Assembly: GCA_016874295.1 (NCBI GenBank)
Contig: VGUH01000010.1
Location: forward strand, 1 to 64,000
From: Gammaproteobacteria bacterium
GTDB taxonomy: Bacteria > Pseudomonadota > Gammaproteobacteria > Steroidobacterales > Steroidobacteraceae
DNA length: 64,000 bases
Direction of reading: 5' to 3'
Under the pieces are notes generated by a model. That model was not told where the DNA came from. It saw only the letters and a program-made list of their open reading frames with translations, and ran no database searches. Position 1 is the stretch's first letter, and each line of letters begins with the position of its first letter. This document shows, one piece after another, positions 35,511 to 40,680 of the stretch. The translations under genes were made by a program, and so were the position numbers.

Positions 35511-36557
35511 ATGGCCGACCTGTCCGACAATCCGCTGGGTACCGACGGCTTCGAGTTCGTCGAGTACACGGCGCCCGACCCGCAGCTGCTGCGCCGGCTG
35601 TTCTCGCGCATGGGTTTCCCGGTCAGCGCCCGCCACCGCAGCAAGGACGTCACCCTGCATCGCCAGGGCGACATCAACTTCGTCATCAACGCCGAGCCCG
35701 GGGGTTTCGGCCAGCAGTTCGCGCGCACGCACGGGCCCTCGGCCTGCGCGATGGCTTTCCGCGTGAAGGACGCCGCTCACGCCCTGAAGCGCGCCGTCGA
35801 GCTCGGCGCCCGGCCGGTCGAGACCAGCGTCGGGCCGATGGAGCTCAGGATCCCGGCGATCGAAGGCATCGGCGGGAGTCTCATCTACCTCGTGGACCGT
35901 TACGGCGAACGCACGATCTATGACGTCGACTTTGTCCCGGTGACCGACCCGGGACCGGCGCGCGGCGCGGGCCTCGTGCTGATCGACCACCTGACGCACA
36001 ACGTGAGCCGCGGCCACATGGACAAGTGGGCCGGTTTCTACGAGCGGTTGTTCAATTTCCGCGAGATGCGCTATTTCGACATCGAGGGAAAGAAGACCGG
36101 CCTGTTCAGCCGCGCGATGACGAGTCCCTGCGGCAAGATCCGCATCCCGATCAACGAAAGCCAGGACGACAGGAGCCAGATCGAGGAGTACCTGCGCGAA
36201 TACCGGGGCGAGGGCATCCAGCACATCGCGCTCTCGACCAACGACATCTACGCGACGGTCGATGTGCTGCGCGCGCAAGGCGTCGAGTTCCAGGACACGC
36301 CGGACACCTATTACGAGGGCGTCGAGGCGCGGGTCGCCGGGCACCGCGAATCCCTGCAGCGCGTCAAGGAGCGCCGCATCCTGATCGACGGCAGCGCGGC
36401 CGACGGAATTCTGCTGCAGATTTTCACCAGGAACGCGATCGGCCCGATCTTCTTCGAGATCATCCAGCGCAAGGGCAACGAGGGCTTCGGCGAGGGCAAC
36501 TTCCGCGCCCTGTTCGAGTCGATCGAACTCGACCAGGAGCGCCGCGGAGTCATCTGA
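35511..36557 (+). CDS. hppD: 4-Hydroxyphenylpyruvate dioxygenase
   Basis: 348 residues from ATG 35511 (GGAG eight bases upstream). It converts 4-hydroxyphenylpyruvate to homogentisate in tyrosine catabolism. Two VOC domains are visible; the iron ligands of the second are in LIDHLTHNV, GIQHIALSTNDI and FFEIIQRKGNEGFGEGNF, all present. The motif IRIPINESQDDRSQIEEYL is typical of the bacterial enzyme. Homogentisate dioxygenase and the later steps are not in the window. It is transcribed divergently from the glutamate dehydrogenase gene. Confidence 0.97.
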   Translation: MADLSDNPLGTDGFEFVEYTAPDPQLLRRLFSRMGFPVSARHRSKDVTLHRQGDINFVINAEPGGFGQQFARTHGPSACAMAFRVKDAAHALKRAVELGARPVETSVGPMELRIPAIEGIGGSLIYLVDRYGERTIYDVDFVPVTDPGPARGAGLVLIDHLTHNVSRGHMDKWAGFYERLFNFREMRYFDIEGKKTGLFSRAMTSPCGKIRIPINESQDDRSQIEEYLREYRGEGIQHIALSTNDIYATVDVLRAQGVEFQDTPDTYYEGVEARVAGHRESLQRVKERRILIDGSAADGILLQIFTRNAIGPIFFEIIQRKGNEGFGEGNFRALFESIELDQERRGVI

Positions 36558-36559
36558 TA

Positions 36560-36602
36560 GGGGCCTGAGCCCCGTCGGGGAGAATCGGGGTCAAATCCCC
36601 GA
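36560..36602 (+). terminator. Two small hairpins after hppD
   Basis: GGGGC-CTGA-GCCCC (36560-36573) is followed by TCGGGG-TCAAAT-CCCCGA (36585-36602). The pair lies directly behind the hppD stop and could terminate or attenuate transcription before the GGDEF/EAL genes. There is no T-run. Confidence 0.4.
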
Positions 36603-36716
36603 ATCCCGGTTCCTCGACCGCTTCACAGATGGCCCCGTTCCGGGGCGGACGTGCGTCACAGGTTTTGCAGCCCGCTGTGCACGCCGACTTCTGTCGCATG
36701 ACACTCCGTTTTACAG

Positions 36717-37499
36717 ATGACGGCAGGTCGAGGCATGGCGGTCGGCACGGCTACAGGGCATTTCGGGGACACCACGCGCATCACGCGCGTCGGCTTTGCC
36801 GACGGATGGACCGGCGTGCTGGCCATCGGCACCATCGTCTACGTCGCGGCGGCGATCTGGTTCACGCTGTCGGACCTGCCTTCTTCGCCCGCACTGGATA
36901 TCTATCGTCTGATTTCGGACCAGCCCGCGGCGTTCGCGGCCGCGGTGCTCGCGATCATCGCCGTGCGTTCGACCCGGCACCCCGCCGCGCGCAGGACATG
37001 GACCTACCTCGCCGCTGCGATCGTAACCTACAACCTTGGCAACCTGGTCGACGCATTTCTCAGGATTGCGGGCCTGACGCCCTTCCCGTCGCTGGCGGAC
37101 TTCTTCTACCTCGCATTCTTCCCGATCCTGATCTCGGGAATCTTCGTGTCGCTTCGGGCGAGCTCGCTGCGCGTGTCCTGGGGCCGGCTGCTGCTCGACT
37201 CGCTGATCCTCGTGCTCGGCTTCGGCACGTTCTTCTGGTTCTTCGTGATCAGCCCGGCCGCGGCGGCGAGCGAGGAGGCGCTCGCCCCCTTCGTGCTGAC
37301 CCAGGTCTATATCGCGTTCGATTGCCTGATGCTCATGGCCATCGGCGTGCTGCTGATGAATGCGACGGCATGCCCGCTGCGCAAGACGACGGTGGCGCTG
37401 CTGGCTGCCGGTTTCGGGTTCATGTTCCTCGGCGACATCATCTGGGCCGCCTCGGTGGTCGTGGGCCGGTACATTTCCGGCGACAACTTCTCGGAGTGA
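36717..37499 (+). CDS. Membrane sensor half of a broken GGDEF/EAL protein
   Basis: 260 residues, almost entirely hydrophobic, with about seven predicted membrane helices. It ends in VVGRYISGDNFSE at a TGA. The sequence then continues in the +2 frame as MYLACYAGLASAAQVQIRDK, exactly where an uninterrupted membrane sensor would go on, so a one-base deletion near 37497 is likely. The TGA and the next ATG overlap (TGATG), which could allow reinitiation. Start ATG 36717 or 36735. It probably sensed a membrane or extracellular signal for the cyclic-di-GMP output domains downstream. Confidence 0.68.
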   Translation: MTAGRGMAVGTATGHFGDTTRITRVGFADGWTGVLAIGTIVYVAAAIWFTLSDLPSSPALDIYRLISDQPAAFAAAVLAIIAVRSTRHPAARRTWTYLAAAIVTYNLGNLVDAFLRIAGLTPFPSLADFFYLAFFPILISGIFVSLRASSLRVSWGRLLLDSLILVLGFGTFFWFFVISPAAAASEEALAPFVLTQVYIAFDCLMLMAIGVLLMNATACPLRKTTVALLAAGFGFMFLGDIIWAASVVVGRYISGDNFSE

Positions 37500-37774
37500 T
37501 GTACCTCGCCTGCTACGCCGGCCTTGCGTCCGCGGCCCAGGTGCAGATCCGGGACAAGTCGCGGCCCGAGCGGCAACGCTCGCCGGCCGCGGGCGCGTTC
37601 ACACAGGTCATCGCCTATGCCGGCCTCGGAATGTCGTTCTTCGTGCTCGTGTACTTCGCGGCGGGGGACGGCCGCAGCCCTGTGACCATCATGACCGGGG
37701 CGATCTTCGTGCTGGCGATCCTGGTCCTGGCGCGCCAGAGCGTGATCCTGCGCGACGACGCCGAGGAGCGCTAG
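37499..37774 (+). CDS. Second fragment of the broken membrane sensor
   Basis: 91 residues with two to three more membrane helices (AGLGMSFFVLVYFAAG, AIFVLAILVLARQSVILRDD). It is read from the ATG overlapping the upstream TGA. It ends at an in-frame TAG at 37772-37774; beyond it the same frame continues without a gap into the PAS domain. Read through, the junction would be AEER-stop-RKAVDLIEARF, as expected of one continuous chain. It has no function of its own that I can name. Confidence 0.5.
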   Translation: MYLACYAGLASAAQVQIRDKSRPERQRSPAAGAFTQVIAYAGLGMSFFVLVYFAAGDGRSPVTIMTGAIFVLAILVLARQSVILRDDAEER

Positions 37775-37783
37775 CGCAAGGCT

Positions 37784-39556
37784 GTGGACCTGATCGAGGC
37801 GCGCTTCGCCTCGCTGATCCGCAACGCCTCCGACGTCATCATGATCGTCGACGCGGAGGGGCGCATCGAGTATGCCTCGCCCGCGGTGCAGCGCACCTTC
37901 GGCCTGTGGCAGGATGACCTGGTCGGGCGCCCGCTGGCGGAAATCTGGCGCGACGCGGACCGGGAGCGCATCGTCGCATTCATGGCCGAGGTCACAGCCA
38001 GCCAGGGCGTCTCGGTCGGTCCGGTCGAGATCCCGGTCAGCACCAAGACGCGGGGCTTCATCCTCGAGTGCGTCGGCAGCAATCTCCTCGGCGATCCCGC
38101 CGTCAAGGGCCTCGCACTCAATCTGCGCGACGTCACCGATCGCAAGGCGCTGGAGGACCAGCTGCGGCAACTGGCATTCCACGATCCGCTGACCCTGCTC
38201 GCCAACCGCAGTCTGTTCCGCAACCGGGTGGAGCACGCGCTTGCGCTCGCGCGCCGCACGCAGGAGCGGCTGGCGGTGCTGATGGTCGACCTCGACAACT
38301 TCAAGAACATCAACGATTCGCAGGGCCACGAGACCGGCGACCGGCTGCTGCAGACGGCAGCCCAGAGGCTGGTCAAGTGCACGCGCGCGGCCGACACCGT
38401 CGCGCGGCTCGGCGGCGACGAATTCGCCGTGTTGCTCGAGGGTATAGCCGATGTCGAGCAGGCCGAGCAGATCGCCATCTCGATCACCGAGGCGTTCCGC
38501 GTCCCGATCGAGATCGACGGCAACGAGCTGCTGGTGACCGCGAGCGTCGGCGTCCCGCTTTCGGAGCCGGGCGACGACACGGAAAACGTGCTGCGCAACG
38601 CCGACATCGCGATGTACGGCGCCAAGACCGCCGGCAAGGGCCGGTACGTGGTATTCCACGCGCACATGCAGGAGCAGCTGCGTGAACGCCTGCGCCTCGA
38701 GGACGACCTCAATCAGGCATTCGAGAAGAACGAATTCTTCCTCGAGTTTCAGCCGATCGTCGACCTCAAGACCAGCGAGTTGCTCGGTGTCGAGGCGCTG
38801 GTGCGGTGGCAGCACCCGGCGAGCGGCCGGATGCTGCCCGGACAGTTCATTCCGCTGGCGGAGGAGACCGGCCAGATCATCGCGCTCGGACGCTGGGTGC
38901 TCGAGGACGCGTGCCGGCAAGTCAGCCGGTGGCGCCGCCGCATGCCGGCCGGTGAAGGGCTGCGTATCGCGGTGAACATCTCGGGCCGTCACCTGCAGCA
39001 GGGCGACCTGTTCGGCGATGTCCGGCACGCGTTCGAGATTTCCGGTCTCGAGCCTGAATGTCTCCTCATCGAGCTCACCGAAAGCACGATGATGCACAAC
39101 TCCGAGGCGACTCTGCTCAAGCTCCGCGACCTCAGGTCGCTGGGCGTGCGCCTCGCGATCGACGACTTCGGGACCGGCTACTCGCCCCTGTCTTACCTGC
39201 ACCGTTTCCCGATCGACATCCTGAAGATCGACCGGTCCTTCATCAGCCGTCTGACGGAATCGAGCGAGGGGCCGAAGCTCGCGCGCGCGGTCGTGATGCT
39301 GGGCGAGACGCTCGAGCTCGAGACCGTGGCCGAGGGCGTCGAGGTCGAAGACCAGGTCGCGCAGCTTGTGAAGCTCGGCTGCGTGGCCGCGCAAGGTTTC
39401 CTGTTCTCGCACGCGACCACCCTCGATGAGGTCGGGGCATCGCGCTTCGCGCAGCGCCGCGAGCAGCTCCGGCTCGCGCACGCGGGCTACGACCGCCTGA
39501 CCGCAACCGGCCGCTACCGCGTCGCCGAAATCGTCCGCAAGCGCGGAGCGGCCTGA
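37784..39556 (+). CDS. PAS-GGDEF-EAL cyclic-di-GMP enzyme
   Basis: 590 residues from GTG 37784 (AAGG just upstream). A PAS domain (about 1-130: SLIRNASDVIMIVDAEGRIE) is followed by GGDEF (140-300) with the active ARLGGDEFAV and an RxxD inhibitory site (RAAD) five residues before it. The EAL domain (310-565) keeps VEALVRWQHP, VNISGRHL, IELTES, DDFGTGYSPLSY, LKIDRSF and AEGVE, so both cyclase and phosphodiesterase could be active. The intact gene probably included the membrane sensor encoded just upstream, now cut off by a TAG and a frameshift; the remaining protein would be soluble. Confidence 0.92.
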   Translation: MDLIEARFASLIRNASDVIMIVDAEGRIEYASPAVQRTFGLWQDDLVGRPLAEIWRDADRERIVAFMAEVTASQGVSVGPVEIPVSTKTRGFILECVGSNLLGDPAVKGLALNLRDVTDRKALEDQLRQLAFHDPLTLLANRSLFRNRVEHALALARRTQERLAVLMVDLDNFKNINDSQGHETGDRLLQTAAQRLVKCTRAADTVARLGGDEFAVLLEGIADVEQAEQIAISITEAFRVPIEIDGNELLVTASVGVPLSEPGDDTENVLRNADIAMYGAKTAGKGRYVVFHAHMQEQLRERLRLEDDLNQAFEKNEFFLEFQPIVDLKTSELLGVEALVRWQHPASGRMLPGQFIPLAEETGQIIALGRWVLEDACRQVSRWRRRMPAGEGLRIAVNISGRHLQQGDLFGDVRHAFEISGLEPECLLIELTESTMMHNSEATLLKLRDLRSLGVRLAIDDFGTGYSPLSYLHRFPIDILKIDRSFISRLTESSEGPKLARAVVMLGETLELETVAEGVEVEDQVAQLVKLGCVAAQGFLFSHATTLDEVGASRFAQRREQLRLAHAGYDRLTATGRYRVAEIVRKRGAA

Positions 39557-39580
39557 GTCAAGGCGCGCGCCCCTTCGATT

Positions 39581-40680
39581 TCACGGCCGGTGCGGGCGCG
39601 CGAGGTAATCGCGGCCCTGCATCTCGTGCAACCGGCTCGCGGCGCGCCGGAACTCGAAGGCGAGCCGCTCGCCGCGGTACAACCCGCCAGGCGCGTCGCG
39701 GGCCGCCGACACGAATAGCTTCACGCCGCGGTCGTACAGTTCGTCCACCAGCGTCACGAACCGCCGTGCCGCGTCGTCCATGCGGGCGTCCAGCACCGGG
39801 ACTGCGGACAGGAACACGGCGTGAAAGCAGCGCGCGATCTCGATGTAATCTGCCGCAGAGCGCGGGCCCTCGCAGAGCTCGTGAAAGTCGAACCAGACGA
39901 CGTCCTCGGTACAGCGACGTGTACGTATCGAGCGCCCTTCGACCTCGATCTCTGCATTGCGCGCACCGCCCTCGCCGGTCAGCCGCTCGAACTCTGCCTC
40001 CAGTCGTACCTCGGCATCGGTGATGCCCGGGCCGAGCCACAGCGTCGCGCGCTCGAGCTCGCGCAGGCGGTAGTCTACCCCGGCGTCGAGCTCGACCACC
40101 CGGCAGTGCTTCTCGAGCAGGGCGATGGCCGGCACGAAGCGCTCGCGCTGCAGCCCGCCGTGGTACAGCCCGGAGGGCGGGAGGTTGGAGGTCGCGACCA
40201 GGGTGACGCCGCAGCGGAACAGCGCAGCCAGCAGGTTCCCGAGGATCATCGCGTCGGCGACGTCGTTGACCACGAGTTCGTCGATGCACAGGATGCGCGC
40301 CTTCGCGGCGACGTCGGCCGCGACCTGCTCGAGCGGCGAGCGGCGGTCGCGGTGACGCCTGAGCCGGCCATGCACGTCCTGCATGAAGCGGTGGAAGTGT
40401 TCGCGCCGCTTCTCGCGTACCGGCAGCTCGGCGAAGAACTCGTCCGCCAGCAAGGTCTTGCCGCGACCCACGCCGCCCCAGAGGTAGAGGCCGCGCAGCG
40501 GGGCGCGCGACCGCGGCAGCAGGTCAAGACCGCGGCCGAGCAGGGAATTGCGCGCCAGCACACGGCGCCTCAAGTCCTCGAGCCGGTCGAGTACCGCACG
40601 CTGCGCCGCGTCGGGCGCGGCGCCCCGCGCCGCGAGCGCAGCCAGGACGCGCGCGGTCAGGGGATGTCTTGCGGCCGGGC

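Follow-up and report, generated by a model that had tools for sequence, protein, structure and literature searches.

An interrupted membrane-sensor GGDEF-EAL gene in a draft gammaproteobacterial genome and its probable decay

The window, the whole stretch of 64,000 nucleotides that was analysed, belongs to contig C10 of a gammaproteobacterial draft genome (G000, the own genome below) of 2.37 Mb in 46 contigs, 98.8% complete. According to the reading of its open reading frames, positions 36717–39556 of the forward strand hold one gene in three pieces, interrupted by one frameshift and one in-frame TAG. The features of the locus are the following.

36717..37499, + strand: piece 1, N-terminal part of the membrane sensor, 260 aa, stopping at a TGA (ORF; six hydrophobic segments by hydropathy)
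37497..37501, + strand: TGATG, where the TGA of piece 1 (37497–37499) overlaps an ATG (37499–37501) in another frame; the frameshift site (ORF reading)
37499..37774, + strand: piece 2, C-terminal part of the sensor, 91 aa, stopping at a TAG (ORF; two hydrophobic segments by hydropathy)
37772..37774, + strand: in-frame TAG separating the sensor from the PAS domain; a sense codon at this position in ten aligned relatives
37784..39556, + strand: piece 3, PAS-GGDEF-EAL frame, 590 aa, beginning at a GTG, with the TGA ending at 39556 (ORF, Pfam)
37823..38146, + strand: PAS domain (PF08448, 41.6 bits)
38174..38641, + strand: GGDEF domain, with the GGDEF motif at 38411–38425 (Pfam, 161.7 bits)
38384..38395, + strand: RxxD (RAAD) motif, five residues before GGDEF (R201 and D204 invariant in alignment A3)
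38702..39412, + strand: EAL domain (Pfam, 242.9 bits)

The earlier note had placed the first break at a TGATG and taken the second for a TAG without a change of frame. Both placements hold; the frame of piece 2 carries on unshifted past the TAG as far as the TGA ending at 39556. No run of more than three equal bases lies within 50 bases around the frameshift. In shuffles that kept the codon-position composition, the 590 codons of piece 3 were stop-free in 0 of 500 cases and the 260 codons of piece 1 in 20 of 500. The estimate of seven or more membrane helices needs a small correction: hydropathy gives six plus two hydrophobic segments, and the predicted model of an intact relative's sensor has about ten long helices (mean pLDDT 73.8).

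Neither piece 1 nor piece 2 has a Pfam match above the cut-off, piece 2 showing a weak DUF7937 match below it. When the piece-1 parts of 13 members were compared with Pfam, the best E-value was 0.0029 (DUF6410), and the window's member had no match above the cut-off. The sensor has no NCBIfam match above the cut-off and no sequence match among solved structures; a fold search gave none at E 0.001 (best E 0.022). Weaker relatives of the sensor's membrane domain family occur in Actinoplanes, Streptomyces and Chloroflexi records.

The PAS, GGDEF and EAL domains of piece 3 are all above the Pfam cut-off. The RxxD motif is the inhibitory site of GGDEF enzymes, and the EAL residues E337, N398, E430, D460, D461, K481, E517 and Q537 (numbered in the 590-aa frame), all of them kept, are catalytic motif residues. 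Judged by its domains and motif residues, piece 3 is of the GGDEF-EAL c-di-GMP enzyme type. The catalytic half had been called fully intact, which is right for the frame and the motif residues, RxxD included, but too strong for the sequence as a whole: of 199 GGDEF/EAL columns that do not vary among nine relatives, 18 are altered in the window copy, one of them by a Ser-to-Pro change directly after the DDFGTGYS stretch. No motif residue is among the altered invariant columns listed. When the nine relatives were left out one by one, each had between 1 and 7 changes of this kind across the two domains, except the distant relative L034, in which 23 of 222 invariant columns are altered. The predicted fold of piece 3, based on six sequences, is of moderate confidence (mean pLDDT 74.7, pTM 0.50). 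The closest solved catalytic halves by sequence include 5m3c (E 9e-114), 4rnh (E 3e-102) and 5xgb (E 3e-65), with the PDB titles 'Diguanylate cyclase', 'Motility regulator' and 'PA0861'; we take them to be MucR, MorA and RbdA. Membrane GGDEF-EAL proteins of this type are intact chains, whereas the window gene is split and its sensor has no solved match.

A search of 98 genomes for piece 1 found a relative in 20, the own genome included. The sensor tree left out rows with a stop in the best match or with a short match, among them that of congener G003 (L117), and grouped 14 relatives with the window; G003/L117 was restored for the branch-length comparison and the complete-frame count, which brings the clade to 15 relatives. 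A break in the G003 copy was considered and rejected, since the counted stop sits upstream of the start codon. Thirteen of the 15 relatives have one complete frame. Ten full-length relatives can be aligned with the three pieces over their whole length, every one of them in a single frame. Identity to the DNA of the closest relatives is 44–51% in piece 1, 40–45% in piece 2 and 63–67% in piece 3, with one relative whose third part is itself frameshifted aligned in two parts; piece 2 is also given as 36–45% identical to relatives, and piece 1 is 45–51% identical to the sensors of the six congeners. Because these ten relatives align across all pieces in one frame and 13 of the 15 are complete, the locus is, as the earlier note had proposed, one gene and not three. 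Three separate genes as the ancestral arrangement were rejected, being found in 0 of the 15. The intact relatives have about ten membrane helices followed by PAS, GGDEF and EAL domains, and, set against the intact frame of these close relatives, the window copy looks like a pseudogene by that comparative standard.

The other two clade relatives, L026 (G001:C104) and L032 (G004:C74), carry one frameshift each, at positions other than that of the window; both come from incomplete drafts, and their frameshifts fit parallel decay and also draft error. None of seven window neighbour proteins stands beside the gene in the congeners' stretches, and of 63 loci tested only L154, distant and 38% identical, has three of the seven.

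The window copy has long end branches: 1.11 for the sensor against a clade median of 0.19, 0.53 against 0.12 for PAS and 0.40 against 0.09 for GGDEF+EAL. Distance ratios, taken with one set of five congeners throughout, are 2.23 for piece 1, 1.80 for PAS and 1.73 for GGDEF+EAL. An own-genome paralogue, C9:72121, with an uninterrupted catalytic half 52% identical to that of the window gene, has a GGDEF+EAL ratio of 1.27 (GGDEF 1.07, EAL 1.37; six rows). As the ratios of the window gene exceed that of the intact paralogue and are highest in the sensor, its sequence seems to have been under weaker constraint along the whole length, most of all in the sensor; since the gene lies outside the congeners' neighbourhood, hidden paralogy could account for part of the divergence. 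The suggestion that the output domains were kept while the sensor was lost is partly borne out: the sensor has changed faster and the frame and motifs of the output half are preserved, but the enzyme half is accelerated too. Only 18 of the 199 invariant columns being altered, constraint apparently lasted through most of the branch, and both breaks probably arose late.

Broken genes elsewhere in the genome were sought by comparing orthologues, 829 kb of own DNA against 793 kb of G003, because codon-bias scans for breaks proved too noisy and were rejected, the first missing three known stops and the second a known gene. The own side has ten flags in eight of 206 genes (74,739 codons), and six genes stand as broken: a FimX-like gene, a second GGDEF-EAL gene and those for a TPR protein (judged from the flag and a codon scan), a methyltransferase (two stops), a DUF4124 protein (for which only the flag was used) and a deoxynucleoside kinase. 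Two flagged genes, an aminotransferase and a PadR/PspC pair, proved to be gene-boundary effects and were removed before the count. In the reverse comparison, 209 G003 genes have three flags, of which two stand; the third lies close to where an alignment ends and was discarded by its flag only. The resulting background, 4 of ~202 genes against 2 of 209, is ~2% in the own genome and 1% in G003, with no clear difference between them.

Of the own GGDEF/EAL proteins compared with G003, 4 of 10 are interrupted; among the G003 counterparts it is 1 of 10, the FimX-like one on its C24. Beside the window gene, the interrupted genes are the following.

G000:C7:107663-108145 (L065): TAG in the GGDEF domain
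G000:C14:49243-49932 (L066): TAA in the FimX-like EAL domain
G000:C9 near 15,300 (L070:10317): frameshift beside a (GC)n run in gene C9:14244

Set against the 4 of ~202 other own genes, 4 of 10 gives a Fisher p of ~0.0002, and leaving out the window gene (3 of 9) gives a p of ~0.002; the denominators used were 201 and 203, since the motif pattern caught three of the signalling rows in the set of 206 but not the FimX-like one. With the window gene left out, the excess is weaker when counted per codon (p ~0.011, from hand-rounded codon totals), GGDEF/EAL genes being longer than average. The excess is support and not proof, since it was the window gene that led to the comparison and the signalling and background genes did not receive equal scrutiny. 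By domain, in-frame stops in the own genome fall in 1 of 10 GGDEF, 1 of 8 EAL and 1 of 33 ABC matches and in 0 of 8 tRNA-synthetase and 0 of 21 TonB-receptor matches. The six congeners have such a stop in 0 of 67 GGDEF matches; for ABC, only the own match has one among the matches listed for the own genome and congeners, and for TonB receptors the counts are 1 of 64 in G002 and 0 of 25 in G003.

Other own stops or frameshifts lie at L250:15059, L067:6140 and 6422, L070:4496, L254:8495 and G000:C1:136538-136966, in otherwise conserved genes for the deoxynucleoside kinase, methyltransferase, TPR protein, DUF4124 protein and an ABC ATPase. In G003:C1, frameshifts near 126,784 and 47,278 affect a putative dGTPase-type phosphohydrolase and a putative POT-type transporter (named by eye).

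Most probably these observations reflect genuine gene decay of fairly recent date, in a draft genome whose c-di-GMP network is shrinking. The ancestral gene would have encoded a membrane-anchored, sensor-regulated c-di-GMP enzyme, with a sensor of about ten helices followed by PAS, GGDEF and EAL domains. A frameshift and a nonsense change, both probably of fairly recent date, would then have broken it in this lineage, whose small genome is losing several of its GGDEF/EAL genes. The single-frame relatives, the excess of broken GGDEF/EAL genes, the long end branch and the intact paralogue count for decay; the background of broken genes, which is not clearly above that of G003, and the constraint still visible on the enzyme half count against it.

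Sequence or assembly error, with an unbroken gene in the organism and one or both breaks as artefacts, is rather unlikely. Such errors would be in keeping with the 46-contig draft, with the few non-signalling genes that are broken as well and with the incomplete drafts of the two relatives in which the same gene is broken. Many apparent bacterial pseudogenes have been argued to be assembly artefacts, and elevated counts of genes with internal stops are often due to assembly error, according to the available part of one report (PMC11017572). Errors are not expected to cluster in GGDEF/EAL genes, however, as the breaks do here, nor to spare the TonB-receptor and tRNA-synthetase matches; the frameshift of the window lies outside any base run, and two errors would leave the fast divergence of the whole copy unexplained.

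With the gene decaying, translation from 36717 would halt at the TGA and only most of the sensor would be made. The TGATG is an arrangement that allows translational coupling, and re-initiation at the overlapping ATG, only two bases before which stands a GGAG, could give a short membrane fragment. The first start past the TAG is the GTG nine bases on, preceded at 15 bases by GAGGAG and at two bases by AAGG, neither of them well placed; a weak restart there could yield some soluble PAS-GGDEF-EAL protein no longer under sensor control. A scan of 36400–39700 for sigma-70-like promoters, with other promoter kinds outside its reach, found none, and terminator-like sites number two, no more than in shuffles. 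Because the ribosome sites are poorly placed and no sigma-70-like promoter was found, the soluble product is possible but probably scarce. We infer that the organism itself carries the breaks and makes little or no product from the gene.

A working split gene, in which the soluble PAS-GGDEF-EAL protein is made by restart and kept by selection as a sensor-free enzyme, is improbable. The 590 stop-free codons with their motif residues, the slower divergence of the enzyme than of the sensor and the coupling permitted by the TGATG would suit it, as would the nonsense changes before GGDEF in dgcE, dgcQ and dgcN of Shigella flexneri, with which c-di-GMP is still raised (PMC11327459, available part). 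Against it stand the GTG of piece 3, which has neither a well-placed ribosome site nor a promoter-like site, the acceleration of the enzyme half and the absence of the same split from all 15 clade relatives. Its extension to the whole network is more doubtful again: c-di-GMP signalling would have been rewired, with sensor-enzyme genes broken and their catalytic halves, such as 37784–39556, translated by restart, always on and selected.

Recoding, in which an amino acid would be inserted at the TAG and programmed frameshifting would restore the full protein, is very improbable. TAG is an ordinary terminator here (it ends 9 of the 46 other window genes called by a codon-bias caller), and a search for a suppressor tRNA found none: the 39 tRNA matches in the genome all have sense anticodons and none has CTA, TTA or TCA. 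The frame does continue exactly across the TAG, further in-frame TAGs occur in the own genome and the tRNA set is incomplete, with no Ile or Tyr gene, so that a suppressor may be missing from it, but the breaks are shared with 0 of the 15 clade relatives and other own breaks are TAA and TGA.

Gene decay in the window would be a further case of a known phenomenon, ordinary loss that leaves an enzyme fragment which may still be usable. S. flexneri has several genes for diguanylate cyclases in which a stop codon precedes a GGDEF domain that is itself intact, and c-di-GMP is still raised by three of these genes, as described in the available part of the report (PMC11327459). Like dgcE, dgcQ, dgcN and dgcM of that species, the window gene has a stop before an intact catalytic part, in a genome with several such genes broken, and, like the degenerate Shigella cyclases, it is intact in other species of the group. 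The Shigella genes, so far as the same part of the report goes, were verified by whole-genome sequencing and assayed for activity, whereas the window gene is known from the sequence of a draft assembly; unlike them, it is frameshifted as well and has an EAL domain that looks active. The layout of the intact relatives, with about ten helices, PAS, GGDEF and EAL, is like that of Escherichia coli DgcE (ten-helix MASE1, PAS, GGDEF and a degenerate EAL; PMC11327459, available part). Unlike DgcE, the window gene has a piece-1 sensor part with no Pfam match above the cut-off and an EAL domain that keeps its motif residues. A literature search found no paper joining diguanylate cyclases with draft-genome stop errors, and in a search for Steroidobacteraceae with pseudogenes or genome reduction the family name was absent among the matches listed.

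The locus clearly exemplifies a GGDEF-EAL gene that is broken while its catalytic half is still whole, and 4 of 10 genes of this kind in the genome are interrupted. Should the breaks be real, it shows an uncultured lineage losing second-messenger signalling and offers a test of whether broken sensor genes still feed the c-di-GMP pool, as has been reported for Shigella. The own genome has one PilZ match and no flagellin match; flagellin is also missing in five of the six congeners, so its absence is common in the genus, is not a mark of the own genome and is not tied to the breaks. One GGDEF-EAL protein, encoded in the G000:C18:8442 region (L280), is 93.7% identical to its counterpart on G003:C102 (L271), and the main segments of the other nine GGDEF/EAL counterparts are 59–86% identical between G000 and G003. 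This pair may reflect recent transfer, strong constraint or a misbinned contig.
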